Positions 1,000 through 24,606 of a DNA stretch of 24,606 nucleotides are shown in pieces. The DNA comes from a virus: positions 1 through 24,606 of the IMG/VR virus record IMGVR_UViG_3300021962_000621; one strand, given 5' to 3'. Every line of letters begins with the position of its first letter. Position 1 is the stretch's first letter. A program made the position numbers and the translations under genes. Under the pieces are notes generated by a model. The model saw only the letters and a list, made by a program, of their open reading frames with translations, searched no databases and was not told the DNA's origin.

Positions 1000-1388
1000 A
1001 GCAGAGCGTCAAGCTGATCGTGAGTTGTAGCGGCTTCAATCGCAGCGACCTTGGGTGCAATGGCAGCTTGTGCAGCGGCAACGGCAGCAGGGTCGTACTT
1101 GGACGGGTCACGCATCTGCTCTTGGACAACTTGCTGGAAGCTGAACGATGCATTGGCTTTCATCCCGGCCTTACGGTCTTCAACAGGAATGTCGTAGGTT
1201 CCGTACACGATCTGCACTGGGTCAGTGGACAAATCAAATGTGTGGGCTGTATAGCCTTGACGGTGCGCTGTGATAGCTGGCCTCACTTCAATGGCTGATT
1301 TCCAACCATCTTGACCAACGGGGGGTGGCGTATCCCAACAGTCGGTTACTTGGCCCGACTGAATCCTGACAAATAAACTATTGCTCAT
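996..1388 (-). CDS. Conserved phage protein of unknown function (130 aa)
   Basis: I recognise this as a type of conserved hypothetical found beside tail fibres in aquatic phages, but no function is known to me. The first ~75 residues look like compact beta structure (VRIQSGQVTDCWDTPPP, then a segment ending IVYGTYDIPVEDRK). The last ~40 residues are alanine-rich and helical, ending VAAIEAATTHDQLDALL. A strong Shine-Dalgarno (AAGGAG, six bases before the ATG) decides the start. The ATG overlaps the stop of the sulfotransferase fusion by 4 bases, and the stop overlaps the next start by 4 bases, so it sits inside a tightly coupled run. Its position would fit a fibre-associated or fibre-assembly protein, but this is only a guess from context. 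Confidence 0.7.
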   Translation of the reverse strand: MSNSLFVRIQSGQVTDCWDTPPPVGQDGWKSAIEVRPAITAHRQGYTAHTFDLSTDPVQIVYGTYDIPVEDRKAGMKANASFSFQQVVQEQMRDPSKYDPAAVAAAQAAIAPKVAAIEAATTHDQLDALL

Positions 1389-3154
1389 GCAACGCTCCTT
1401 AATGCGGGTTTCTGGCCCAAACGGTCTTTAATACGGTTAAATGGGGCTTGCCAATCCCCAAACATTTCTTGGCGAATCAGCTTCATTGAGTCGTAGTAGG
1501 GCGTAGTCTCGCCATCAAGTGCATACAAAAAGTAAGGCATGATGGGTGTAACTGTCCACGTTTCAACGCCCATAGCGGCTGCTAAATGGCCTACAGAGGT
1601 GCAAGAGCTAATCACCAAGTCGCACGATGCCACTGCCTGACGGGTGTCTTCCCAGCTACTTAAAGGCACAGGCTTGACCCAATCCGGGGCAGCGTCAACG
1701 CCTTGATCCCGTTGCAAACTAATGAACTCAGCGTCTGCGTCTTTGACTGCGGTGAACATCAATTCATAAGGAAAAGCTTTGTGATGTTCATGTTCAAACT
1801 GGGCAGAACCTTGCCAGCGTAGGCCAATGCGTTTCTTGCGGCTTTTGATGGTCACAGGCTTAGTTAGATACGAAGCGCCAGAAAGGTCTGCCAACTCAAA
1901 GCCAAGTGGCACAACAGCCGACATACCAGCAACCCAGAAGTCATGGTAGATGCCAAACACAGCTTCGTGCTGGATGACTGAGGATACACCTTCAACATCA
2001 ACGAATAGGGATGCTAGTGAGCCACTGCAAGCAACAATAACTTTGCAACCCCGTGCGGCAATGTATTTGGCGTAGCGCACTTGGTGAATCTGGTCACCCA
2101 GACCGCCTTCAAGGTTGAGCAGGATGATGCCTTTGGTCTTGCCGTCCCATAGTTGGGTGGGTACGTTGGGGCGCTTGTTACCAAACACATTTGCTAGTCG
2201 GCCCCTGTCCATCAGGCTGTAACCTTTTTGAATCTGCCCTTGACGTAGGTAGTACCAGCCACGGTTATAAGCTGCGCGGTGATTGTTAGGTTCTTTGGAT
2301 TCTAATTCTTGGGCCAAGCGCCAGCCTTCTTGAAAATTACCTATTGTGGACGCTGCAAGCTGTAAATCTAGTGCATGGATATCAGGCATTGTTCGTGGGG
2401 TATCTAGCCAGAACTCAGGCTGACAAAACTCTGAGTAGTAAGACTTGAGTAAATCTCTTGGGTCTTGTTTATGTTGGGCTTCCAGCTTTGGCTTGATACT
2501 GTGTAGGCCAACATAGCCGTGCAATTGCTCGTCATCTTCAGCTACCGTGGAACCGTCAATGTTGTCAAAGTCGTAGGAGAAATCAGGCAATTCAAGAAAG
2601 GCGTGAATACGCGCCAATTGCGCTTTAGGGTCAGACAGCAGGTCTTCATACTCAACAAACAGAAAGTTTTCAGGCGCAGAACTATATCCGTTTTGCAGCA
2701 TGAGGTAAGAACCTTTTAGGTGGCTCATCAGTTTCCCAGATTGCATAAACTCATCAAGATTTTCAGGTTTTGCTATACGAAGAAAGCTGGCTGCACAGTC
2801 AGGAATTGAACGTACCGTAGCGATAATTTTAGGCTGCTTGCCAAGGACTTGAAACATAGAGGACATGATCTCTGCAATAGGCCAGCTACGGGACTTGTCA
2901 ATAATGACCGGGGCAGTTTTGTCCTCGTAAAACGCATCAATCGCACCACGCATTGTTTGAGCCAGCTTTTTCTTTTCGGGGTCGTTATCGTTTAACAAAC
3001 CAGAAGAGTGCCAAGAAGTTGCCAAGCTATTCAATGCCTCAACAAGACCAGACGTTGTTGAGACGTGAGTCATTGGGTTCTGGTTAAGAATAGCCGCCAG
3101 CACCGTGCTGCCACTGCGCGGGATACCAGAAAGGAATGCTAGTTGTTTTTTCAT
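1385..3154 (-). CDS. Sulfotransferase-TPR-glycosyltransferase (GT9-like) fusion
   Basis: The 589-residue protein joins three modules. Residues 1 to ~250 are a PAPS-dependent sulfotransferase: the 5'-phosphosulfate loop is GIPRSGST at 10-17, and IIATVRSIPDCAASF near 110-124 corresponds to the 3'-phosphate-binding Arg/Ser element. Residues ~258-320 form a helical TPR-like linker (AYNRGWYYLRQGQIQKGYSL). Residues ~340-580 resemble heptosyltransferase/GT9-like enzymes: EGGLGDQIHQVRYAKYIA at 349-366, IGLRWQGS at 443-450, and DLVISSCTSVGHLAAAMGVE at 512-531, matching the family's nucleotide-sugar site pattern. It would transfer sulfate and a sugar to a glycan or protein, but the acceptor is unknown. 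The ATG shares one base with the stop of the propeller gene (TAATG) and has no Shine-Dalgarno, which implies coupled translation. The PAPS donor could come from the kinase fusion two genes downstream. Confidence 0.8.
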   Translation of the reverse strand: MKKQLAFLSGIPRSGSTVLAAILNQNPMTHVSTTSGLVEALNSLATSWHSSGLLNDNDPEKKKLAQTMRGAIDAFYEDKTAPVIIDKSRSWPIAEIMSSMFQVLGKQPKIIATVRSIPDCAASFLRIAKPENLDEFMQSGKLMSHLKGSYLMLQNGYSSAPENFLFVEYEDLLSDPKAQLARIHAFLELPDFSYDFDNIDGSTVAEDDEQLHGYVGLHSIKPKLEAQHKQDPRDLLKSYYSEFCQPEFWLDTPRTMPDIHALDLQLAASTIGNFQEGWRLAQELESKEPNNHRAAYNRGWYYLRQGQIQKGYSLMDRGRLANVFGNKRPNVPTQLWDGKTKGIILLNLEGGLGDQIHQVRYAKYIAARGCKVIVACSGSLASLFVDVEGVSSVIQHEAVFGIYHDFWVAGMSAVVPLGFELADLSGASYLTKPVTIKSRKKRIGLRWQGSAQFEHEHHKAFPYELMFTAVKDADAEFISLQRDQGVDAAPDWVKPVPLSSWEDTRQAVASCDLVISSCTSVGHLAAAMGVETWTVTPIMPYFLYALDGETTPYYDSMKLIRQEMFGDWQAPFNRIKDRLGQKPALRSVA

Positions 3155-4830
3155 TACGTTGATTTGGTAACTAATAGTGTATTTACAGTATTAGCTATAG
3201 TTAACCAAGTAGTCAATGTGCCTACCTGCACGGGACTTGAACGATTAGTAAGATTGTTTTGGCCTAACTGCCCAAAATTATTTACGCCCCATGTCCAAAG
3301 TGTACCGTCTGTTTTTAGGGCTACTGAAAATAAAGTACCGCCTGCGACTTTACTCCAAGCGGTCAATGCACCTACTTGTTTAGGGCTTGAATAGCTTGTA
3401 GTGTTACTTAAACCCAAAGCCCCGTAAGCTCCAAATCCCCAAGACCAAAGAGTACCGTCGGTCTTAACGGCTAACGTATGACTATTACCATTACAAGAAA
3501 GTTGACTCCAGTTTGTTAAACTTCCAACTTGAACGGGAGAAGAGTAGTTTGTAGTGTTGCCTAACCCCAATTTGCCATTTGCACCATTACCCCACATCCA
3601 AAGAGTGCCATTTGTTTTAATTGCTCCAGCCCAAGTTTGACCCATGCTAATTTTTGACCAAGTAGTCAACGAGCCAACTTGCTTTGGAGAAGAATAGGCC
3701 GTTACATTACCTAAACCCAATTGACCATAACTGTTAAAACCCCATGTAAAAATAGTCCCTCCAGTGGTTAGACCTATTGCAGGGTTGCCTTCAGCATTTG
3801 CGGATACGTTAGCCCAAGTGGTTAATGCCCCCACTTGTTTAGGAGAAGAATAATATGTGACATTACCTAAACCTAAAGCACCTTGGCCGCTACCTCCCCA
3901 AGACCAAAGAGTACCGTCGGTCTTAATTGCAAGAGTAAAAGCGTACCCGTTACTAACTTTTGACCACCCCGTTAAACTGCCAACTTGTTTAGGAGAAGAA
4001 TATCTAAAATAAGTGCCGCTATTCCCCAGTCCTAATTGTCCACGGTTATTATTGCCCCAAGACCATAACGTGCCGTCTGTCTTAACAGTAGTTGTAAAGT
4101 TTTGCCCCCCAGTTGTCACAGACCAGTTAGTCAGTGTGCCGACTTGAGTGGGAGATGAGCGATATGTATATACGCCAGAATCCCCCAGACCCAACTGACC
4201 AAAGTTGTTTCGACCAGAAACCCACAACTGCCTTGCAACATCCGTTGTGATGCTGTTACTAGCAGAACTCGCTGCGCTTGTACCAACTGCATTGGTTGCC
4301 GTAACGGTAAAGGTGTAACTCGTACTAGCAGCCAACCCAGAAACTGTAATTGTTCCAGACCCTGCTTGGTTCAAAGTTCCTGTAATGCCAGAAGGTGAAC
4401 TTGTAGCAGTGTAAGAAGTAATTGTAGACCCGCCATTATTTGCTGGCTGAGTAAATGCAACTGTTGCTGTAGTTTGACCCGTAGCCGTGGCAGTGCCAAT
4501 GGTTGGTGCGTCTGGGACTGATGTCACTGTTGCTGTGGTATTGGAATCAGCCGTAACCCCAGATGGTGCAATGGTATTGGTGGCTTTCACCCGGCAAAAA
4601 ATACCAAACCCACGATCACCTATAACCAGCACATAGCTTGAAGAAGTTGCACCGCCAATGGAAGTACTAGGACTTCTAAACCATTGATAAGTAAACGTCG
4701 GTGCTGGTGCGCCTGTCCAAGTACCGTCAGTCGTTGTAAGCGTAGAGCCAACAGTGGTTGTACCTGTAACTGCGGGAGCTACAGTGTTAACAGGGGCAGC
4801 ACCGTAGCTGCCACCCACAACTGTGAGCAT
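3154..4830 (-). CDS. Fibre/receptor-binding protein with Ig-like, FN3 and seven RCC1 repeats
   Basis: From the ATG at 4830 the protein is 558 residues. Residues ~12-105 look like an Ig-like beta sandwich (PAPTFTYQWFRS, SSSYVLVIGD). Residues ~106-196 look like a fibronectin type III domain (SGLAASTSYTFTVTATNAVG). Residues 200-558 are seven RCC1 repeats of 54, 53, 52, 50, 51, 50 and 49 residues, each built around [T][LI][WF]xWGxxxxGxLGLGN...SSPxQVGxLTxW...KTDG. Seven blades make a complete beta-propeller. Exposed Ig/FN3 domains and propellers are typical surface-binding modules, so adsorption is the likely role. The start is chosen because the frame upstream of 4830 merely reads the end of the preceding fibre gene out of frame, giving a Cys-rich peptide. 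The stop overlaps the next ATG. Confidence 0.85.
   Translation of the reverse strand: MLTVVGGSYGAAPVNTVAPAVTGTTTVGSTLTTTDGTWTGAPAPTFTYQWFRSPSTSIGGATSSSYVLVIGDRGFGIFCRVKATNTIAPSGVTADSNTTATVTSVPDAPTIGTATATGQTTATVAFTQPANNGGSTITSYTATSSPSGITGTLNQAGSGTITVSGLAASTSYTFTVTATNAVGTSAASSASNSITTDVARQLWVSGRNNFGQLGLGDSGVYTYRSSPTQVGTLTNWSVTTGGQNFTTTVKTDGTLWSWGNNNRGQLGLGNSGTYFRYSSPKQVGSLTGWSKVSNGYAFTLAIKTDGTLWSWGGSGQGALGLGNVTYYSSPKQVGALTTWANVSANAEGNPAIGLTTGGTIFTWGFNSYGQLGLGNVTAYSSPKQVGSLTTWSKISMGQTWAGAIKTNGTLWMWGNGANGKLGLGNTTNYSSPVQVGSLTNWSQLSCNGNSHTLAVKTDGTLWSWGFGAYGALGLSNTTSYSSPKQVGALTAWSKVAGGTLFSVALKTDGTLWTWGVNNFGQLGQNNLTNRSSPVQVGTLTTWLTIANTVNTLLVTKST
3437..3926 (-). repeat. 31-bp exact direct repeat within RCC1 blades
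   Basis: The segment at 3437-3467 is repeated exactly at 3896-3926. Both encode the KTDGTLWSWG blade junction. Exact identity over 31 bases in repeats that are otherwise diverged suggests recent blade duplication or gene conversion within the propeller. Confidence 0.8.
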
Positions 4831-4838
4831 TATTCCAC

Positions 4839-5918
4839 TCACGATACGTTTCCAGTAATAAAGACAACAGAGGCAGTTACAAACAAAACTGTGCAAACCC
4901 CTCGACTAGCTAGTGTGAATGAAGTTACTACTGTATTTGTACCGCCAAGGTATGCGGTTATTGCAGAGCTAGTATTTGAAATACCTGCTGTAGTATTATT
5001 TACTATGGATATAACATCCCCCGCAGCAAAAACGCTGGCTGGAATCACAATCGTGCCGCTTGTGCCTAGCTCAATAAACTTACCAACATCTCCAATAACA
5101 AGGGTGTAGCTTGTTGTTTTAGCGCCTGAGTTTGGTATGTTTAGATAGCCAACTTTGTTTGTACCGTCTACTGTGCAGTTGCTCAAAGTGCCAGAAGTTG
5201 GTGTACCAAGAACGGGAGTCACCAAAGTTGGGCTTGTTGCCAACGCTACAACCGTTCCCGTACCTGTGGTTGTGTACGAAGTCCCCCATGCAGAGCCAGT
5301 TGAATTTGCTATGCCAGCGCCGGGATACGTTTGTGCCGCTACTGCTTGAAAAGTGGGGGCCGCACTTGCATTAGCAGTTAAGACATACCCTGCTGTGCCT
5401 GCGGAAGTGGTTGCCAAGACGCTTGTGGTTGAGGCATAAGTTACGCCGTATTGGGTAAACGCACTGCTCTGACCTGTTCCACCAGAAGTGTTTGGCAGAG
5501 CAGCGCCGAGGGTTAAAGCTGAGAAGTAGTTCTGGGCAACGATGATGTCTGTGCCGTTGCTGACTAGGGCCATCTTTGCTGCGGCCGGGATGGACACCCC
5601 GGTCTGGCCTGTGACCTTGAATGTGATGGCAGATGCGGTGTTGTTAAAAACAAAGTACATCTTTGTTTTGGTTGTGGGGACGTTGACTGTGCCCCCGCCT
5701 GTACCGTTAAGCTGGATGTAGATGCTCCGAGCTACTCCGGTTGTGCCGTCAGGGATGGTCAGTGTGTCTGAGCCTCCAGTGGCTGAAAATGCCTGATATC
5801 CCAATGCTTCGTCGAGCATGTTGGTGATGTTGGCATTGACCGTTGTGCCCCAAGTACCCGACAACTCTCCCGTAGCGGGTAGGGCCAGAGCCAGATTTGT
5901 ACTGTATGACGTTGCCAT
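4839..5918 (-). CDS. Tail fibre protein
   Basis: The 359-residue protein begins MATSYSTNLALALPATGELS followed by GTWGTTVN, a common N-terminus of podophage fibre and appendage proteins. The middle carries the GGTGQSS...YGVTYAST...GTAGYVLTANASAAPTF fibre repeat pattern. Residues ~265-359 (TTSYTLVIGDVGKFIELGTS onward, ending in VFITGNVS) match a beta-rich domain often found at the C-terminus of phage fibres. A strong Shine-Dalgarno (AGGAGG, five bases from the ATG) lies immediately after the upstream stop. The composition is rich in Thr, Ala, Gly and Ser, as expected of a trimeric beta fibre. It is followed eight bases later by the propeller protein, so the two are probably components of one host-recognition apparatus. 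The fibre assignment is fairly sure; its exact place on the virion is not. Confidence 0.8.
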   Translation of the reverse strand: MATSYSTNLALALPATGELSGTWGTTVNANITNMLDEALGYQAFSATGGSDTLTIPDGTTGVARSIYIQLNGTGGGTVNVPTTKTKMYFVFNNTASAITFKVTGQTGVSIPAAAKMALVSNGTDIIVAQNYFSALTLGAALPNTSGGTGQSSAFTQYGVTYASTTSVLATTSAGTAGYVLTANASAAPTFQAVAAQTYPGAGIANSTGSAWGTSYTTTGTGTVVALATSPTLVTPVLGTPTSGTLSNCTVDGTNKVGYLNIPNSGAKTTSYTLVIGDVGKFIELGTSGTIVIPASVFAAGDVISIVNNTTAGISNTSSAITAYLGGTNTVVTSFTLASRGVCTVLFVTASVVFITGNVS

Positions 5919-10213: not shown

Positions 10214-11005
10214 TTAGTACTGCTTTCCTTTGGTTAGGCCCCGGACGGCGCATCCGTTCCCCCGCGCAGGGGACTTGTCTGCCGAGCCGCCTTTGGCGTA
10301 CTTCTTGATCATGCCGCCTTTTTTCTTGAGCCTGAATCCTTGGTCCCTGCCAAGGACCTCTTTCTTCATGTAGTCCAAGCCTGCTTGAGGAACTGTTTCC
10401 ATGTCAATGCCGTACCTTCGGGCATTTTCTTGCAGCATCTCTTGGTACTTCTCTGCCGCACGATCAGCACGTTGCTGTGTCATCATCTCGGCTTTAGTGG
10501 GCGCTGCGGTGACGTTTTTATCGTAGCCAATTTTGGGAAAAAGGTCATCGTAGAAAGAGGGATCCTTTTTCACAAACTCGTCAGCGCCTTTTTTGGCAGA
10601 GCCAAAGAGTTTCTTTCCTGCCATCCTAAGAAGTCCGGGAGCAATAGCGGCGGTTTCCTCTAGCGTGGTGTCCGTTTCTAGGGCGTCCCTTTTGTCCAAG
10701 GCATCCCTTCTATCCCGGGCAGCCTGCATTTCATTGGCCCTAGCAACCGTAGGGCCCGGGCGATCCGCAGACAAGGTTCTTGTGGACTTTGGCTCGTCAC
10801 TGGAAGACGAAGACGGTTTGACATCCCCCCGACTTTCCCTTGGCTTGTAGGTTCCGCTGGTCGCCTTGTACGGATTTGACTCTACATCAGAGGCCATCTT
10901 CTTAGAGTAGGTCTTGCCATCAAACTCAAAAGTTGGTGAGCTTTTATCTTTCAAGCGAGCCTTAAACTCAGCATTGAAACGTTTTCTGGTTTCAGAGATG
11001 GCCAT
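10214..11005 (-). CDS. KGG-tag protein with RGNG tail (263 aa)
   Basis: Starting at the ATG at 11005 (AGGA eight bases upstream, right after the preceding TAG), the product is MAISETRKRFNAEFKARLKD onward. Residues ~15-40 form a small charged domain (FEFDGKTYSKKMASD), followed by a Ser/Pro/Arg-rich disordered stretch. A helical region follows (RANEMQAARDRRDALDKRDA; KLFGSAKKGADEFVKKDPSF; MMTQQRADRAAEKYQEMLQE). The C-terminus is KKKGGMIKKYAKGGSADKSP followed by ARGNGCAVRGLTKGKQY. The last ~37 residues match the C-terminus of the 331-residue protein nearby. A longer frame from 11053 overlaps the upstream gene and lacks a binding site, so I reject it. The function is unknown; a packaged virion protein is inferred. 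Confidence 0.65.
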   Translation of the reverse strand: MAISETRKRFNAEFKARLKDKSSPTFEFDGKTYSKKMASDVESNPYKATSGTYKPRESRGDVKPSSSSSDEPKSTRTLSADRPGPTVARANEMQAARDRRDALDKRDALETDTTLEETAAIAPGLLRMAGKKLFGSAKKGADEFVKKDPSFYDDLFPKIGYDKNVTAAPTKAEMMTQQRADRAAEKYQEMLQENARRYGIDMETVPQAGLDYMKKEVLGRDQGFRLKKKGGMIKKYAKGGSADKSPARGNGCAVRGLTKGKQY

Positions 11006-13803: not shown

Positions 13804-13823
13804 TAATCCACTGGAGTGGATTA
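13804..13823 (-). other. Perfect inverted repeat at the capsid stop codon
   Basis: TAATCCACT, two bases, then AGTGGATTA forms a 9-bp perfect hairpin that includes the capsid gene's TAA. It lies directly ahead of the terminator. It may be a second mRNA 3'-end structure protecting the capsid message. Confidence 0.6.
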
Positions 13824-14735
13824 GGCTCCTGCGGAACCATAAATGCCACGTGGGTCGGACCAGCCAAAGCTGTACCGTTCCCGTGCTTTATAGCGCACAT
13901 TGCCCGTGTCAAAGTCGCCTTCAAAAGCGGTTTTGATGGGAGAGCGGTTGAACATTTTCAAGCCGTTTGGAGCATCGGTCATGAGGAACCATGCATCCGT
14001 ATCGGTCAAAAAGTGGTTTACCGCATAGCCTTCAGGAATCATGCCCATCGATTTGATGGCGTTGATGTCATTGTCGGCAGTGGCTGTGCGAAGCGTGGTC
14101 TTCATCAGACGTTCAGCAGTAAACTGCTGTTCTTTTGGAATCACAAGTTTACGGGCTTGAATGGCGATTTTAAGGCCGCGCTCATCCGTGAAACTTGCAA
14201 CGTCGATGATACCCTGCTCAAGGGAAGTTTCATTCAAGTCAGCCTGTGTGGTAGGCGTGTTGCTGAAATTTGGCCCCAAAGCAGTTGGGTGGGCAGAGTT
14301 GCACAGGGAAACACCATCGCCGCCGTTGTAGCTGCCGCCGGTATTAAACGCTTGGTTCAATACAGAAGCTGCTTTGACCTGCTTGGTGTTGGCCATAGAA
14401 CGAGCCAACGCCTTGGTGTAGCGCCCAGACAGTCGGTCATAGAGGTTGTCCTCAATGGCCTCTTCGGTCAGGGCAAATGCCATTGCAATGGTCTCATGAG
14501 TGTACCGAGCCGTGAATGATTCCTGAGCAGAATCATACGAGACACCGGAGCCCTCATTCTTGACCGGAGCAGCACCAAAGCCAGTGAGCATGACCTCTTC
14601 TTCAAATGCGCGGTCAGAACTCTCCACTGAGAAGATTTCTGTGTGCTCATTTTCGTAGCGGTCATATTCCATTCCAAACAGTGCGTTTAGTCCGGGCTCA
14701 AGTTCTTTTACAAGTTGTGAACGAGAAATTGCCAT
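13821..14735 (-). CDS. Major capsid protein (HK97 fold)
   Basis: The 304-residue protein starts MAISRSQLVKELEPGLNALF and contains FEEEVMLTGFGAAPVKNEGS, followed by GVSYDSAQESFTARYTHETI and AMAFALTEEAIEDNLYDRL. A PTALGPNFSN loop region, IAIQARKLVIPKEQQFTAER and NAIKSMGMIPEGYAVNHFL follow, with a C-terminal beta strand YSFGWSDPRGIYGSAGA. This arrangement matches HK97-type capsid proteins of pelagiphage-like podoviruses, and the length is within the family's range for subunits without a delta domain. A strong Shine-Dalgarno (AAGGAG, seven bases) precedes the ATG. Scaffold, decoration-like protein and terminator around it complete a classic head module. Confidence 0.9.
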   Translation of the reverse strand: MAISRSQLVKELEPGLNALFGMEYDRYENEHTEIFSVESSDRAFEEEVMLTGFGAAPVKNEGSGVSYDSAQESFTARYTHETIAMAFALTEEAIEDNLYDRLSGRYTKALARSMANTKQVKAASVLNQAFNTGGSYNGGDGVSLCNSAHPTALGPNFSNTPTTQADLNETSLEQGIIDVASFTDERGLKIAIQARKLVIPKEQQFTAERLMKTTLRTATADNDINAIKSMGMIPEGYAVNHFLTDTDAWFLMTDAPNGLKMFNRSPIKTAFEGDFDTGNVRYKARERYSFGWSDPRGIYGSAGA

Positions 14736-16726: not shown

Positions 16727-17179
16727 TTACATGTGCATGATGTCTTCAGGATCGTGGATTGTGGCAAGTATCTCGTCATCATTGAGGATGCGAATCTCGC
16801 CACCGTCAATATTCATCCTTGCCCCGGCATACCGTCCAAATATGATCCAGTCGCCCTTTTTGCACCATGGACCTGTTGGGAATTTGACAGTATCGGCATA
16901 GGCCAAAGGTCCCACCGACAGGACATACCCGCATGTAGTAGACACCTGCTGTCGTTCAATGGTCTGATCAGCCAGAACGATGCCGCCTTTGGACTTATTT
17001 GCACCCCGGTAGGGTAGGATGACGATTCGCCAGCCCGTAGGCGTTGGAATACGATCAATCACGGACTCACTAAGGCTCTCGGTCCTCAGTTTGCCATCTG
17101 AAGTATAGGCATCGGTCAGTTCCGGCGTCTTCTCCGCCGCATCCTTCGCCCATTTTTCCTCTAAAGCAGTTACTGTCAT
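16727..17179 (-). CDS. groES: Phage-encoded GroES-like co-chaperonin
   Basis: From the ATG at 17179 the protein is 150 residues. A ~40-residue charged N-terminal extension precedes the Cpn10 barrel, which starts around IDRIPTPTGWRIVILPYRG. The mobile-loop region ANKSKGGIVLADQ follows, then GYVLSVGPLAYADTVKFPTG, the barrel strand WCKKGDWIIFGRYAGARMNI and the closing GGEIRILNDDEILATI. Co-chaperonins cap the host GroEL ring and let it fold large phage capsid proteins, as gp31 of T4 does. The start is fixed by AGGAG five bases upstream; the GTG two codons earlier would have no spacing. The N-terminal extension is longer than in bacterial GroES (about 97 residues). Confidence 0.85.
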   Translation of the reverse strand: MTVTALEEKWAKDAAEKTPELTDAYTSDGKLRTESLSESVIDRIPTPTGWRIVILPYRGANKSKGGIVLADQTIERQQVSTTCGYVLSVGPLAYADTVKFPTGPWCKKGDWIIFGRYAGARMNIDGGEIRILNDDEILATIHDPEDIMHM

Positions 17180-17187
17180 TTGCACTC

Positions 17188-17553: not shown

Positions 17554-19902
17554 TTATTGGACATTTGTTGCTCCATTATTCATCTTCATCAAGGCCAATT
17601 GGTCCCTGTTGGCGGCTATTTGCTGCTGCGAATTTAGCCGTGCCTGCTCTTCTGTCACGTTATTCTGCTCCTGCTGCTGGTCAAGTTGCAGTTTGGACTG
17701 GTCTATCTGCAAACGGCCCTGATCTCGCTGGGAATTTTGAGACAATTCCTGCTTTTTCAGTTCTATCAAGGGATCCGGGGGCTGCGGCTGGTTCTCACCC
17801 GACAATTCCGCTTGCTGTTGCCTGATAAGTTGGAAGAACTCCACAATCTTGAGTGCGATCATGGCTTCCCGTTGTAGCCCGGACACCATTTTATCGGGGT
17901 CAGTGCCATATTGACGGAACAACTCGGCCTCAACAAACTCCTCTGCCTTTAAACGCATGTGGTCAAAGATGTGTTTCTGCAAGGCCATTGCTGCTGCCGG
18001 AGAAGCACTGACCAGTGGGGACAATCCAAAGATCAAATGCGTCATGATATGGGCATCGTGCTGCTGGCCAGCAAATGCCTTGAGCGGAGAGCCGTCCAAA
18101 ACCTGCGAGTTCTCACTGGCAGGGTCTTTGGGCTTGTCCACATTCTGGCTAATTAAAATAGCGTCAATATCCCTGACGCCAATCGCTTCGTACATGCGCC
18201 TGAAAGCCTCGTACATGTTGTGCATCTGAGGCGCACTCTGCGCCATCTGCAATTGCGTCTGCGCCATGGTGATGCGCTGCGCCACAGAGAAGATGTTGGG
18301 GTCAGAAACCGGCAGTACATCCACACGTTCGTCAAAGTCCTTGCGTTTGATGGACCGCGACTCGCCCGGCACGTCATAGGGGTAGTCATCCGGCAGATAT
18401 TCTGCAAATCCCTTGGCCAGCAACTGAAACTCAAGCTTCTGTGCATAGTGCAGCCGCTTGTGAATGGCCGACATGACCGAGGAGCCCTTTTCCAGCAATG
18501 CAATCGTGGTCCCAACCGCTGCATTTTGGTTGCTGTCGCCTACTTGCAGGTCCGTGATGGAAGCCATACGGCGACCCGCATCCACGCAAAACCCAAGCAG
18601 GGCCATCAAAGTCTGACTTGGCTCCTTGTACGGCAGCGGAAGCATGGAGCCCTGTAGCTCAACGCCACCTGCGTCCATGTCACGCCATTCTCCCGGCTGC
18701 AAGGGCACATCGTCGTTCATGATCCGAGCGCCTTTGGCCTTGAACCCCGCCGGAAGGTTGCTCAGAGTGCCTGCGTCCACCAACTGGCGCAGTGCAGCAG
18801 AAGCGGTCTTGCTCAAACCACCAATCAACTGCAAAAACCCTAGGCCATAGGCCCCCGGTCCTTGGACAAGCTGGTAGTGGATGTAGTACTCCTGCCGTTC
18901 CTGTTTATTGCCGTCCTCTTTCCAGTTTCTACGCACACCAATGGTCTTGCCAGAGGACTCATCCAACGTAATCACATAGGGCAGCTTGATTCCCGTGGGT
19001 TCTCCCTCGTCATCCACGTCCTCAAAGCCCGGCAAGTCATAGTCCACCTGAAACTCAAGCAGGATGATCTCCTCCTCTTCCCCACTGGGTTGTAGGCCGG
19101 TGATCTTGTTGACTTGGTCCCTGATTTCGGTGGTCTGCGTGTCCTGTTCAGAGGAGGCGGCATCGATGTACTGCCCGTTGACCACGGCCTTGCGATAGGC
19201 GTTCATGGACATCGGAACCCGGCACGTGATGCGCTCACATTTGCTCATTACAGACGAGCCACCGTAGGGAATGTAGAGGTTGTCCGGCAGCACCAAGGCA
19301 CTTACCATGCGCTGCTGGTTTTGGTCAAAGTAGATCTTCTTGAATGCCGAGCCGCCATAGCCCACATAGAACAGCATCTGGTCAAAGTCGGGGGTGTACT
19401 CCTGCATCACCGTGGTGATCTGGTAGTTCATGAAGTCCGCTACCCGTTCGGCCTGCATGGTACGTTCGCGTGTCTCTTTCCCCAGCACCTGAGTACGCAC
19501 GGGCCCGCCCGAGGGGAGCAATTCTTTCAGGGCCTGTGCCTGAAATTGCACAATGCTCTCCGACAGGAGTGGGTGCTGGACGCCACACGCACCACGGAAG
19601 GGACGGGTGCGCTCCTCATTGGTAAAGCCCAGTAGCTCTAGGCCCTTGCCATACTGATCTTCCCAGTCCTTGCGTGAAGATTTGTCCGCCTCAAACAGCA
19701 TCATCAACTCACTGGAGATAGCGGTCAAGGTGCTGTCATCTAGGCCCTCGGCAAGGTTGGCTCCGTAGGGCAGTTCGTCGCCCTCCGCACCAATCTCTAC
19801 TGTGGCCCCGCCGTCCTCATCAAGAATAATCTCAATGTCCGGCATGTCCATGCCATCATCCACTTCAATGTCGATGGGGCTTGTGTTTTTTTCAATTGGC
19901 AT
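17554..19902 (-). CDS. Portal protein (P22-like)
   Basis: This 782-residue protein has an acidic, disordered N-terminus (residues 1-45, DIEVDDGMDMPDIEIILDED). It then has the portal-type helix EADKSSRKDWEDQYGKGLEL (71-90) and RPFRGACGVQHPLLSESIVQ (100-119). The core contains FYVGYGGSAFKKIYFD and LPDNLYIPYGGSSV. The stem/wing region contains LLGFCVDAGRRMASITDLQV. A C-terminal coiled coil rich in Gln and Leu occupies the last ~75 residues (KKQELSQNSQRDQGRLQIDQ, QSKLQLDQQQ). It forms the DNA-entry ring of the head and anchors the neck. Its length fits P22-type portals with an extended C-terminal barrel. AGGA lies seven bases before the ATG, downstream of the polyvalent gene. Confidence 0.9.
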   Translation of the reverse strand: MPIEKNTSPIDIEVDDGMDMPDIEIILDEDGGATVEIGAEGDELPYGANLAEGLDDSTLTAISSELMMLFEADKSSRKDWEDQYGKGLELLGFTNEERTRPFRGACGVQHPLLSESIVQFQAQALKELLPSGGPVRTQVLGKETRERTMQAERVADFMNYQITTVMQEYTPDFDQMLFYVGYGGSAFKKIYFDQNQQRMVSALVLPDNLYIPYGGSSVMSKCERITCRVPMSMNAYRKAVVNGQYIDAASSEQDTQTTEIRDQVNKITGLQPSGEEEEIILLEFQVDYDLPGFEDVDDEGEPTGIKLPYVITLDESSGKTIGVRRNWKEDGNKQERQEYYIHYQLVQGPGAYGLGFLQLIGGLSKTASAALRQLVDAGTLSNLPAGFKAKGARIMNDDVPLQPGEWRDMDAGGVELQGSMLPLPYKEPSQTLMALLGFCVDAGRRMASITDLQVGDSNQNAAVGTTIALLEKGSSVMSAIHKRLHYAQKLEFQLLAKGFAEYLPDDYPYDVPGESRSIKRKDFDERVDVLPVSDPNIFSVAQRITMAQTQLQMAQSAPQMHNMYEAFRRMYEAIGVRDIDAILISQNVDKPKDPASENSQVLDGSPLKAFAGQQHDAHIMTHLIFGLSPLVSASPAAAMALQKHIFDHMRLKAEEFVEAELFRQYGTDPDKMVSGLQREAMIALKIVEFFQLIRQQQAELSGENQPQPPDPLIELKKQELSQNSQRDQGRLQIDQSKLQLDQQQEQNNVTEEQARLNSQQQIAANRDQLALMKMNNGATNVQ

Positions 19903-19911
19903 GTTGCATCC

Positions 19912-22900
19912 TTAGAGGTACTTGCGATTATCGTTGGATTCTCGTTCCATGAAACCGCCTTTGGCACGTTTCTGAGGCGTAGTGACGTTCTTGAGTGCTT
20001 GCTGAAGGAGTTCGCTCAGAGTATCCCCATTCCCCACTAAAAGGGAAGACTTTTCGTTTAATCTAACTGCTTCTTCCACAACCTTACGCAAGCCTTCCGC
20101 TTTATCTCCATAAAGTGTTTTTAACAATGTCATGTGCCTAAGGAATTGGTCATGTTTTTTTGCATCGGTAGTTGAACTAAGCAAATCCTCAACACGTCTC
20201 ATGTTTGCAGACATGCCAATTTCAATTACTCCTGCTGGTTGTTGCCTGTCTCTGGGTATCTGCCTCATCCCTAATTGTTTTAAATGGGATATTTCTCTAA
20301 GGCCCCCATATAAGTGATCAAGGTCCTTAACATGCTCTTGGATTGCGGGAAGTGCAGGGTTGTTGGCAAAATCGTAAGAATTATTTCTTCCCGCTATGTC
20401 AACAATATCGTGGACTTCGTTATAACCGCGAGTCCCTTTTGATTGCACACTAACTTGGGCAACAGGGCGGGCTTTTTTACCGTCATTAGTCAGCACTATA
20501 GACAACCTCCTGTCTCCGCTCCCGTAGCCGAATGCATTTTGCTCATGCCGTGTGCACCACCCACCATCACAGCCCACATCAGTAACTATTCCTGCAAGTT
20601 CCTGATTTTTTGATTTAGTCAAATCAGGGATATAAACGCTTATGTACTTGTTATCAGACAAGAACTCTCTTTCAAACCGAGGGTCCGTGCGAAGAGCCGT
20701 GGTGGCCATGCCTTGCCTAGCCTGTTCTTGCCATCCTGTAAATCGGGCTACGCGATTAGACGCCGCCGCAACATTTAATTTTGCCAACGTGTCATCTGGA
20801 AGCAAAAACTCCGGGGGTATTTTAACGCCGGGCTGTCCATAGGCCGAGTATTGACCCCCTGATTGACGAATCTCCAACATCTTGTCGCGCAACTCTTCCA
20901 ACTTTAGGTTTTTTACCATGTCAGGAGAAAAGTCCATTGCCCGTGCTTCTGGATTGGTTGCTACAAGGCCGCGCATACTTATAGGCACTCTGTTTGGCGA
21001 TAAATCCGCTATGGCCTCTGGGTAAGCAGAGAGGTCTGTTAGGTCCTCAATGCGTTGCCCATACTCTGTTTTTGCCATGCCATATCTAGAAAACCCCTCA
21101 ACTTCGCGTGTGTTTTTTAGGTCAGGTTGTTTTTTTAATAGATACTTCTCAAGGGCATTGTCAGCAGCTACATCAAGGCGGAGGTCTTTAGGTGCAAGAT
21201 GTAACAGTTTGCCCTCATCCGCAGCCCTGACAAGCTGATCACTGGGGCTTGCAAAATCTGAACGTAAATAACGGGAAAAGGTTTTTAGGAACCAACTATT
21301 TAGTGCCGGATCTTCAAGACTAGAAGGAAATCCTGTCATGTTTCTGGTAAGAGATTGAGTAATATCCAAGTTTAGAAGGTTGGATACCTCATCCCTCGGT
21401 GCAAGATAAGATGCAGAAAAGTCTTTAAACTCTGGGGTTTTTCTTATTCCCTTGTAGTCCCATGAATTTAAATCAGGGTTTTTAGCAAAAAACGCATCGT
21501 TTTTTGTTTTGTCCATTGAAAGCAAAAAGTTGTCCGTCATAATATCCGCTGGGGGCTCTCGGACAGGGGACATGACCGTTGGTGTGCCCTTTGCACGGAC
21601 GGCGTAGCTTGCTCCGGGAGCCGCAAGCTGCTGGTTGTACTGTTGGAAGTCCTTGGCCAGCATCTTTGCTGCTTCCCCGGTCTTTTCGGCTACTTTTGCT
21701 GCTCCGCGCACGGGGGCGGCGGGGTTGATAAAGTTAGAACCAAGGTCCCCTAGCTCATAAAACCCCTTTAATGTGGGGTCAGTAGGGGGCGCTTGACGAA
21801 TTCCAAGCTGCGTCATCTTGTTTTTGATGAATTCGCTTGTCCCAAACTGTCCCGCAGGCGCTTGGCCCGTCAAACCCTGCCTCGCCAGCATAACTAGGTC
21901 CATGGGCGCACCAGCTAGGTTATAGGGCAGGTTAGTTAGGCCCTTGGCCGCTGCTGTGTAGGCTTCGCCCGAGGCCAAAGCGTCCGAAATCGGGCCTCTT
22001 TGCCGGTTCATGCCAGAGGACTGGGCCCTGAATGACGGTTTCGACGCTGCGTCTATCTCTTCCTGAGATATTTCCCCTTCCTCGGGGCTGCCTTTGGCGC
22101 GATTGACAGTGTTAATCCCCTTTTTAACAAGGAATTTTTTAAGTTTTTGTGCCGCATTGTCCAACATGCCCGGTTCTTTAGATTGCCCTTCCCAAACACC
22201 TCCATAAGGCACAGAGGACTGCGTAAAATAATAGTCAATTAAACTAGGGTCTTTTTTCAACATCTTTTTGCCCACTTCCGTGTCAACAAACGATGTTCCC
22301 TTAGGGTGCATTCCTTCATATCCCGCCAAATTAGCAATTTGTTCTTCTTGCGACCTATTTGGGTCAAGGCCCCAGTAAGAAGTAGCTAAACTATTTGGCG
22401 CGGACCCCTTGCGTACTTTTGAGTCCGGTTGAAATTCTTCCATTATTTCTTTAAGCCGCCTTCTCGCTAACCAATCACGGCCAACCGCCTCATTAACCAT
22501 CTTATCCTTGCCCAACAAAGAGCGTTTATCTGCAACTGCCCTTTGGTGATAAGCTTCATGCGCTTGAGTATTCACCCTATCCATAGCACTTTTGGGATCT
22601 TGCGGAGTATCTTTATCCCCTGAAATAACAATCTGCCCTTTAAGCGGACCAGATGTATAGGTCCATCCCCCTACGTTTAGGTCGTAGTTTATGTACCGAG
22701 GAGGAGGTGCGTTAGAGGTAACACTACTAGCTGGCAACGATGCGTTGGATTCTTTCAACAACTCTGCTAACTGCTTAGACGCAACTGTTTTAGAGTTCCG
22801 TATATATCTGCCTTCATCCCCCACTTCTCCACTACCCATCCCTTCGGAAATCTTTTCATCAAAGGAAGGCTCCTTGTCTTTTTTAAATTTTATTTCGCCC

Positions 22901-24606
22901 TCCTCAGGGCTGCCTTTGAAACGATTGACTTCTTGCCCTGCTAAAAGGTCAGGGGCGGCTGCGCCCATTGCCGCCGCAACTGCTGCGGTCCTGCGAAACG
23001 GGTCATATGCAGCAAAACTGGAGCGGACGTTATCTGATCCGGCAGGGAGCATGTACTGTGTCTGTGCCCCGCCCATGTCGGACATGTCGGTGACTTTTAA
23101 CCTGTCTATCCCGTACCCCGGAAGCCGGTTTATTATTTCTCTTTCCCCAAGGTCCGAGAATGTTGTGCTTAAATTCTCCACGTCTGGGATTAACTTGCCG
23201 TTGGGGTATCGGGCTTGAGGTATCAATAGTTTCTGTATTTCTTCTTCGGGAAGATTTAGTTTTTTTGCCAAGTTATAGCCAAATTGACTGTTATTGCCAA
23301 GGTTATCCATGTCAGAGATTGTTAGCTGCTGCCCCCTTATCCTTAAAGGCATTATTCTCTGGCCATCGCCCTTGCGGTACTTACCATAAAGATTTGCTAT
23401 CACTGGAAGCTCTGCGGCAAATACGGCCTTGTCAGGGTCAAAAGTTAGGAAGTCCTTGCTTGTTCCATGAAATACCTCGGTATCAAAGCCCATTGCCAGT
23501 GCTCTATCCATGGCAGTATTGTCTGGTGGCAACCCTAGTCCGCCCTGTTTAACCGGCAAAGCGGCATTGCGTTGAGCAATTGCCATACGAGCGACCCCTT
23601 CCGCGCCCGAGGATGAATCAACATTTGACACTGCCCTTTGGCGCTGCAAGTAGTCCTTACTTAGTTCCGCCGCTGATGCGGCGGGCTTTAGTGTTTTAGC
23701 ACCCATGCCTACCAACCCTTTAAGTGCCTTGGCTGCTGGGCCAATCATGGAAACCCCACCAGTAACCATGCCCTGCTCACCACGGCCCATGATCTTTTTA
23801 TAGTCCGGGTTCATGGGACTAAAGCCAAGCTGGTCAGGGGCTTCTCCTAGCATGCCTTGCACAAAAGAATAGGTCTGCGGGTCAGGCAATGTGTTGACAT
23901 CATTCGACCTATTGGCTTGCAGGGCCTTGGTCCTTGCAACCTGCCGGGCAAGGTTTGGATTTCCAAAGGCTGGACGGCTTGCTGCGTCTATCTCTTCTTG
24001 GGTTAGTTCCATCTCTCCGCCCCCGGCCATGCGTTTGACAGGGGAGGCTGCTGCTACCCGCTCTGCAAAGGGGGACTGGATCTTAAAGTCAAAGTCCGCG
24101 AGGGCGGACCGGGCACTGGGGCCGGTCAGGAATTGGGTAACGTCATCATCTTCGCGGGCCGCGCTAAGTCTACGGGGCTCGTCGCCAGAGATGCGTAGCT
24201 CGTCCTCATCATCTTCCTGCGGAGCGGGATTGGTGGTTTCGCCCAGAAAGCTCAGGGCCATTGCGGCCTGATAACTTGGGCCAAGGGCCGAGAGCCTGTC
24301 TTCTGCTTGCGCTCCGGGTCCCACTGTTTCACGTGAAACAGTGGGCCTGTTTGCCGGGGCGACTGGAACAGAAGGTGCACCTGCCGCCTGTCTAGGTGCG
24401 GGGGCCACGTCAGAGGGAGCGGGGGCCTTGGCCACTGCTGTCTCCGTTCCCATAACCTTCTTCACATAATTCTGCGTCTCTTGCGGCAGCCCGGCCTCAT
24501 CGGCCCCGGCATCCAGCCACTTCTGGGTATTTCCCGGGCCCCAGTTGTAGGCTATGGCAGCAGTGCGCTTGTCCTTGAACTTGTCCAGCATGGCCTTCAG
24601 GTAGTC
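19912..24606 (-). CDS. Giant polyvalent virion protein: lytic transglycosylase end, ART-like, HExxH and WCT domains (5' end missing)
   Basis: The frame is open to the right edge; the first five codons in the window are DYLKA and the visible Met at 24591 is internal. Positions count from that Met (1559 residues). Residues 1-48 are the C-terminal end of a lytic transglycosylase (AAIAYNWGPGNTQKWLDAGA). Residues 50-185 are a Pro/Ala linker. Residues ~370-535 resemble a phage ADP-ribosyltransferase-like domain (EVFHGTSKDF at 372-381; NVRSSFAAYDPFRR at 521-534). Residues ~600-790 carry HEAYH at 678-682, a zincin-type HExxH. Residues ~1010-1540 form an uncharacterised domain with GCDGGWCTRHEQNAFGYGSG. 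The basic tail is KRAKGGFMERESNDNRKYL. Such proteins are packaged and injected with the DNA: the glycosidase opens the wall and the other domains act on the host. Catalysis by the ART and HExxH parts is inferred. Confidence 0.8.
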   Translation of the reverse strand, partial: DYLKAMLDKFKDKRTAAIAYNWGPGNTQKWLDAGADEAGLPQETQNYVKKVMGTETAVAKAPAPSDVAPAPRQAAGAPSVPVAPANRPTVSRETVGPGAQAEDRLSALGPSYQAAMALSFLGETTNPAPQEDDEDELRISGDEPRRLSAAREDDDVTQFLTGPSARSALADFDFKIQSPFAERVAAASPVKRMAGGGEMELTQEEIDAASRPAFGNPNLARQVARTKALQANRSNDVNTLPDPQTYSFVQGMLGEAPDQLGFSPMNPDYKKIMGRGEQGMVTGGVSMIGPAAKALKGLVGMGAKTLKPAASAAELSKDYLQRQRAVSNVDSSSGAEGVARMAIAQRNAALPVKQGGLGLPPDNTAMDRALAMGFDTEVFHGTSKDFLTFDPDKAVFAAELPVIANLYGKYRKGDGQRIMPLRIRGQQLTISDMDNLGNNSQFGYNLAKKLNLPEEEIQKLLIPQARYPNGKLIPDVENLSTTFSDLGEREIINRLPGYGIDRLKVTDMSDMGGAQTQYMLPAGSDNVRSSFAAYDPFRRTAAVAAAMGAAAPDLLAGQEVNRFKGSPEEGEIKFKKDKEPSFDEKISEGMGSGEVGDEGRYIRNSKTVASKQLAELLKESNASLPASSVTSNAPPPRYINYDLNVGGWTYTSGPLKGQIVISGDKDTPQDPKSAMDRVNTQAHEAYHQRAVADKRSLLGKDKMVNEAVGRDWLARRRLKEIMEEFQPDSKVRKGSAPNSLATSYWGLDPNRSQEEQIANLAGYEGMHPKGTSFVDTEVGKKMLKKDPSLIDYYFTQSSVPYGGVWEGQSKEPGMLDNAAQKLKKFLVKKGINTVNRAKGSPEEGEISQEEIDAASKPSFRAQSSGMNRQRGPISDALASGEAYTAAAKGLTNLPYNLAGAPMDLVMLARQGLTGQAPAGQFGTSEFIKNKMTQLGIRQAPPTDPTLKGFYELGDLGSNFINPAAPVRGAAKVAEKTGEAAKMLAKDFQQYNQQLAAPGASYAVRAKGTPTVMSPVREPPADIMTDNFLLSMDKTKNDAFFAKNPDLNSWDYKGIRKTPEFKDFSASYLAPRDEVSNLLNLDITQSLTRNMTGFPSSLEDPALNSWFLKTFSRYLRSDFASPSDQLVRAADEGKLLHLAPKDLRLDVAADNALEKYLLKKQPDLKNTREVEGFSRYGMAKTEYGQRIEDLTDLSAYPEAIADLSPNRVPISMRGLVATNPEARAMDFSPDMVKNLKLEELRDKMLEIRQSGGQYSAYGQPGVKIPPEFLLPDDTLAKLNVAAASNRVARFTGWQEQARQGMATTALRTDPRFEREFLSDNKYISVYIPDLTKSKNQELAGIVTDVGCDGGWCTRHEQNAFGYGSGDRRLSIVLTNDGKKARPVAQVSVQSKGTRGYNEVHDIVDIAGRNNSYDFANNPALPAIQEHVKDLDHLYGGLREISHLKQLGMRQIPRDRQQPAGVIEIGMSANMRRVEDLLSSTTDAKKHDQFLRHMTLLKTLYGDKAEGLRKVVEEAVRLNEKSSLLVGNGDTLSELLQQALKNVTTPQKRAKGGFMERESNDNRKYL
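19954..24036 (-). repeat. Repeated R-x-x-K-G domain-boundary motif in the polyvalent protein
   Basis: Copies lie at 24036-23962 (KRMAGGGEMELTQEEIDAAS), 22923-22861 (RFKGSPEEGEIKFKKDKEPS) and 22101-22030 (RAKGSPEEGEISQEEIDAAS). Shorter forms lie at 21597-21580 (RAKGTP) and 19971-19954 (KRAKGG). DNA copies share stretches such as the 17 bases GCTGCGTCTATCTCTTC at 22046-22062 and 23981-23997. Each copy sits between recognisable modules. Confidence 0.8.
24320..24345. promoter_or_regulatory. parS: parS-like ParB-binding palindrome
   Basis: The sequence is a perfect 26-bp palindrome (13-bp arms). Its centre, 24325-24340, is TGTTTCACGTGAAACA, identical to the consensus chromosomal parS sequence bound by ParB. 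It lies within the coding sequence of the polyvalent protein, over residues 83-91 of its disordered linker. Because it is symmetric it has no strand. No ParB gene is visible in this window. Confidence 0.85.

Follow-up and report, generated by a model that had tools for sequence, protein, structure and literature searches.

Consensus parS sites held at the DNA level in a family of aquatic podoviruses, candidate loading sites for host ParB

The locus raises the question of why a phage virion gene should carry, letter for letter, the centromere site of bacterial chromosomes, and which protein would bind it there. The window (the whole stretch of DNA analysed, a 24.6-kb virus record) was described in an earlier note as containing an exact 16-bp parS core at 24325-24340, and the 16-mer is present there as claimed. 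The core TGTTTCACGTGAAACA fits the consensus TGTTYCACGTGRAACA exactly, so the sequence criterion for a chromosomal-type parS was met. This was the sole match in the window at up to three mismatches; shuffled sequence gave a mean of 0.09 such matches. The chance arithmetic offered with the claim was also correct (~24,600 positions x 4^-16 = 5.7e-6). The note had further extended the symmetry to 26 bp. The longer palindrome does exist in the window (Table 1), but its arms beyond 16 bp are not kept in the phage family: among 56 distinct family sites, 31 had no extension and only three had one of 5 bp. Significance of the extension was rejected on this ground. A mild bias to A was seen immediately 5' of each arm in the same 56 sites.

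The window belongs to a DSL-LC04/HTVC023P-like podovirus. Its portal protein shared 63% identity with the portal of Phage DSL-LC04 and 47-49% with those of the Pelagibacter phages HTVC023P and HTVC027P. Tail or adaptor proteins were encoded on the minus strand, as were the structural genes in Table 1. Adjoining the tail genes were two further minus-strand genes, one for a protein with RCC1 repeats and a fibronectin type III domain (3154-4896) and one for a sulfotransferase-domain protein (1385-3154). Catalogued relatives form an aquatic podovirus group with hosts including Pelagibacter, Roseobacter, Caulobacter, Alcaligenes and similar bacteria. The relative G020 is 61 kb long and terminally redundant, and has genes of its own for a polymerase, helicases, a primase and a terminase. 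At the DNA level, blastn of the window end against catalogued phages gave no useful match. A host search through genome contigs returned a single relative, on a contig in an Armatimonadetes metagenome-assembled genome that also contained an exact parS; evidence from one relative is too weak for the host to be named.

Table 1. Positions of the parS site and of the principal structural genes in the window.
Feature	Position	Strand	Basis and remarks
parS core TGTTTCACGTGAAACA	24325..24340	strand-neutral palindrome	exact match, DNA-level conservation in the phage family; proposed host ParB loading site
perfect 26-bp palindrome CCCACTGTTTCACGTGAAACAGTGGG	24320..24345	none	sequence; the extra 5 bp per arm seemingly incidental
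large virion gene containing parS	19912..24606	-	open reading frame; 5' end beyond the record
portal protein	17554..19902	-	phrog_1216 portal, E=7e-37; used to define the family
major capsid protein	13821..14735	-	PF25209, phrog_371
GroES-like co-chaperonin, a typical member of the family's structural cluster	16727..17185	-	PF00166 Cpn10, E=2e-10

The open reading frame that contains the site runs past the record end, which leaves its true start outside the record. Its product has an N-terminal transglycosylase (SLT) part followed by a Pro/Ala-rich linker, in which parS is read as V-S-R-E-T; the earlier placement of the site over a Pro/Ala linker of a virion gene thus held, the linker lying after the transglycosylase domain. 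The truncated product itself had no Pfam or PHROG match. In G020 the homologue is complete (1584 aa): residues 7-105 form an SLT transglycosylase domain, and a parS of its own follows directly behind it, near codon 129. The window parS lies further along, within the Pro/Ala-rich linker, and judged by eye the two sites are therefore not homologous in position.

Enrichment of the site was measured in 80 relatives gathered by portal similarity alone, from which 55 non-redundant loci (641 kb) were drawn. A site within one mismatch of the consensus was found in 25 of the 80 relatives. In the non-redundant set the exact consensus occurred 18 times, in 15 of the 55 loci, while none of the 839 alternative orderings of the half-site letters occurred as an exact palindrome. 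Against 5,040 degenerate alternatives in the same loci parS ranked first. The reverse test gathered IMG/VR stretches by the 16-mer alone: among the roughly 120 matches listed, 37 showed similarity to one or more of the window proteins (weak in some cases), and 29 had a portal match. Full IMG/VR scans with control palindromes of the same letters returned no stretches for TGTCTTACGTAAGACA and five for TTGTTCACGTGAACAA, as against at least 120 for parS. Shuffles and control palindromes, applied across the window, the relatives, IMG/VR and the catalogued phages treated below, rule out a chance origin of the site; its occurrence in the phage family is not chance.

The site is read in two ways within genes, one frame giving V-[SP]-R-[EG]-T and another F-H-V-[KE]; both readings are used, on both strands, and at some loci parS was found only within short open reading frames that are possibly not genes. 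The parS codons encoded every one of the 13 V[SP]R[EG]T peptides in open reading frames of at least 120 aa. Across three homologous sets, codons for identical amino acids were themselves identical at the site in 250/250, 196/196 and 9/9 comparisons, with flanks at 60%, 55% and 39%. Only site-carrying members entered these sets; neither the count of 13 nor the all-or-none pattern described next depends on that choice. In the small conserved protein encoded after the portal gene, the C-terminus (YVYRKDAF) is near-constant and the linker hypervariable, and this linker contained either parS with 0-1 mismatches (in one clade) or nothing near it (3-8 mismatches). The small post-portal frames of L172, L178 and L174 contained a half-like TGATCCACGTGTAACG with 3-4 mismatches, either a decayed site or chance; these three belong to the clade with parS in the transglycosylase gene. 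Sites with the full consensus differed only at the two degenerate (Y/R) parS positions, and these changes alter the protein (Ser/Pro, Glu/Gly).

The earlier note had proposed a comparison of homologous phages, with lack of the palindrome in relatives, or its decay at synonymous sites, among the refuting outcomes. Relatives were found to carry the palindrome fixed at synonymous positions, and no such decay was seen, absent sites being absent outright. The site is kept as DNA regardless of reading frame, which meets a further criterion for a chromosomal-type parS. It could still be supposed, since the window copy lies within an open reading frame and encodes VSRET, that the match is a coincidence or a peptide whose codons happen to spell parS. 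With parS codons in every such peptide, other frames and short-frame contexts in use, no control palindromes in the same loci and only parS-degenerate positions varying among full-consensus sites, this explanation deserves practically no credence; a conserved VSRET peptide as the cause is ruled out by the codon use and by the other frames and contexts. The site is held by selection on DNA and is not a protein motif.

On the portal tree, sites were present in several clades, at differing genes, frames and strands. They were placed just after the portal gene, at two or more points within the transglycosylase gene, near the C-terminus of a ~1,130-aa protein (G023, G017, G011), and in other open reading frames (L123, L166, L121, L019). 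We read this pattern, for which no formal test was made, as apparent repeated gain of parS in the family, a reading taken from the sequences alone. Family sites lay within the late structural region or next to it, many of them 2-6 kb ahead of the portal gene or ~0.1 kb past it; some were far from the portal gene (G017, G011). Most genomes (40-60 kb) had one site; clusters occurred in some, with five sites within ~0.9 kb in L044 and three in L053. These five exact parS of the viral contig L044 (10535-11462) and another five on the viral contig L017 (2657-3444) each fall within ~0.8-0.9 kb, and L044 encodes a distant relative of the family portal. Of the eight IMG/VR relatives that are 40 kb or longer, four contained parS. 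Alcaligenes phage QDWS535 carries TGTTCCACGTGGAACA, and HTVC027P a one-mismatch copy. No site was found in the complete relatives DSL-LC04, HTVC023P and CRP-901/902, nor in Caulobacter phage RW, despite the well-studied ParB-parS system of its host. Since several complete relatives are without it, parS is not obligatory.

Beyond the family, 50,697 catalogued phage records (INPHARED) were queried by masked blastn. The exact palindrome was present in 286 records, TGTTCCACGTGGAACA in 58 and TGTTTCACGTGGAACA in 147; these counts overlap and include near-duplicate genomes. None of three control palindromes occurred in any of the 50,697 records. Carriers included Listeria P100-like, Microbacterium, Arthrobacter, Gordonia, Lactobacillus, Pseudomonas and phi29-like phages as well as microviruses, and Escherichia and Salmonella were outside the ten commonest names in every carrier list. 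Escherichia coli has neither a ParB homologue nor a sequence like the Caulobacter parS (PMC5815017). Among the single-stranded DNA microviruses, bajarodino virus 6 (5.9 kb) matched at 12 places, equal to six palindromic sites, and Spiroplasma phage 4 had one. In the Klebsiella jumbo phages RaK2 and K64-1 (~346 kb) an exact TGTTCCACGTGGAACA falls within a gene whose annotation is baseplate wedge. Klebsiella is not expected to possess a chromosomal ParB, and for that reason these phages are an exception that calls for an explanation and counts against host ParB loading. In Vibrio phage phi 3 (821, 2934) and relatives of Pseudomonas phage phiPsa374 (~389), parS lies inside annotated terminal repeats at the genome ends, a location possibly relevant to the order in which the DNA enters the cell. 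Enrolment of host ParB through a consensus parS is, we think with some reserve, probably a general and repeatedly evolved strategy of lytic tailed phages and single-stranded DNA microviruses of ParB-bearing hosts. If so, the host segregation machinery handles much of the phage world during infection.

The ligand was sought among the phage genes themselves. The ParB_N domain was absent from all 34 relatives searched (including the 61-kb G020 and eleven complete catalogued phages), and HTH_ParB and ParA-type ATPases were each absent from the 22 searched; positive control genomes were detected. Tyrosine integrase (PF00589; tyrosine type only) was likewise absent from 34 relatives, on which basis integrative lysogeny was rejected. 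In the family records searched, the criterion of a phage-plasmid (encoding ParA and ParB) was thus not met, nor was that of an integrating temperate phage (a tyrosine integrase). The phi29-type criterion, a consensus parS without a phage ParB, was met in the relatives, the window's own phage being readable for 24.6 kb only. The window is a fragment and its missing part could not be searched, which leaves some room for the suggestion in the earlier note that a phage-encoded ParB elsewhere in the genome is the ligand. The domain searches gave this suggestion no support. ParBs of phages and plasmids usually have private sites, and the site here is instead the chromosomal consensus; a phage ParB beyond the window is accordingly very improbable. 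As no ParB, ParA or integrase was found in the relatives searched, the natural ligand is taken to be host ParB. Pseudomonas aeruginosa ParB prefers exactly the half-sites GTTCCAC and GTTTCAC and binds both (PMC10419367).

The presence of the site, its recurrence and enrichment, the constraint on it as DNA, its placement in different genes and the lack of ParB in the records searched were observed directly. Binding of host ParB here is inferred and very likely. That the site functions in loading host chromosomal ParB (Spo0J) and is kept by selection on DNA is held with good though not full confidence, in the absence of binding data. With a parS under DNA-level selection and no ParB gene found in the family, the phages seem to borrow host chromosome segregation. 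After injection or replication, dimers of host ParB would attach to the 16-bp palindrome, form a clamp that depends on CTP and spread onto adjacent phage DNA. To the cell the phage genome would then resemble an origin region, and host ParA and possibly SMC would handle it as such. By analogy with the entry of phi29 into spores via Spo0J, phage DNA might be kept with the nucleoid and passed to a daughter cell when lysis is delayed (slow growth, pseudolysogeny). Such retention or positioning is the role considered most likely, but it is inferred and not shown, and as the main benefit it is put forward tentatively, at slightly under an even chance; any retained state remains conjecture because no lysogeny genes were found.

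Loading of host ParB would also be compatible with other benefits. Replicated parS copies might act as decoys that pull ParB off the chromosome, the phage gaining from disrupted host segregation or division. Replication would multiply even the one site that is typical per genome, some genomes (L044, L053) have clusters, and the parS mimics of SGI1 have a double effect, stabilising that element and making its helper plasmid unstable (PMC10954446). A single site in a genome of 40-60 kb is nevertheless a weak decoy and the phi29 precedent favours retention; titration is considered possible but unlikely, and sequence cannot separate the two. The position of family sites in or beside the late structural region, together with a known ParB spreading range of ~2-10 kb from a single site (PMC5815017), would suit local regulation, in which spreading ParB silences or tunes nearby late genes and links phage transcription to host state. 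Against this, positions vary among relatives, the sites of G017 and G011 are distant from the portal gene and no promoter link was seen, so that local regulation appears distinctly improbable.

No report of widespread parS in phages was found in the searchable literature, which is incomplete for subscription papers, and priority elsewhere cannot be excluded. As far as could be found, use of host ParB by a phage was previously known only for phi29 and spores. The same consensus is now seen under DNA-level selection in an unrelated aquatic family, and hundreds of further phage records contain it. This makes directly testable the question of where virulent phages put their DNA in growing or starving cells and how they retain or shield it. 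The site serves as a one-motif predictor, and cultured carriers with laboratory hosts (B. subtilis, Pseudomonas putida, Arthrobacter, Microbacterium and Gordonia) allow site mutants to be combined with fluorescent ParB.

Among known systems, the phage-plasmids (P1, N15 and the extrachromosomal mycobacterial prophages) likewise are phage genomes with a centromere, but they encode ParA/ParB and have private sites, whereas searches of the present family turned up neither par nor integrase genes. Bacterial chromosomal parS of the ParABS systems has the identical 16 bp with the same Y/R degeneracy; the present sites differ in being on phages, mostly one or two inside genes, without an origin cluster or parAB nearby. 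SGI1 is a mobile element that has only parS mimics and no ParB and uses the ParABS of an IncC plasmid for its own stability (PMC10954446). It is a second precedent after phi29 and resembles the family in having parS-like sites without ParB and, as inferred for the family, in depending on the ParB of another replicon. It differs in that this ParB is plasmid-encoded with a private site; the present element is a phage and its site the chromosomal consensus. Phi29 contains four exact TGTTTCACGTGGAACA (at 10445, 15903, 17243 and 18760), of which one lies in the endolysin linker and reads VSRGT, and B103 contains TGTTTCACGTGAAACA in its endolysin linker, read VSRET. Host Spo0J (ParB) was reported to entrap the phi29 genome in spores (Meijer et al. 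2005, cited in PMC9437464). Phi29 shares with the family the consensus 16-mer and the lack of integrative lysogeny, and its reported capture by host ParB is the likeness inferred for the family. Its host is a spore-former and its reported use of the site is spore entry, while the present family consists of unrelated aquatic podoviruses; because the relatives infect Pelagibacter, Roseobacter, Caulobacter, Alcaligenes and others, the use of the site in this family must differ from spore entry.
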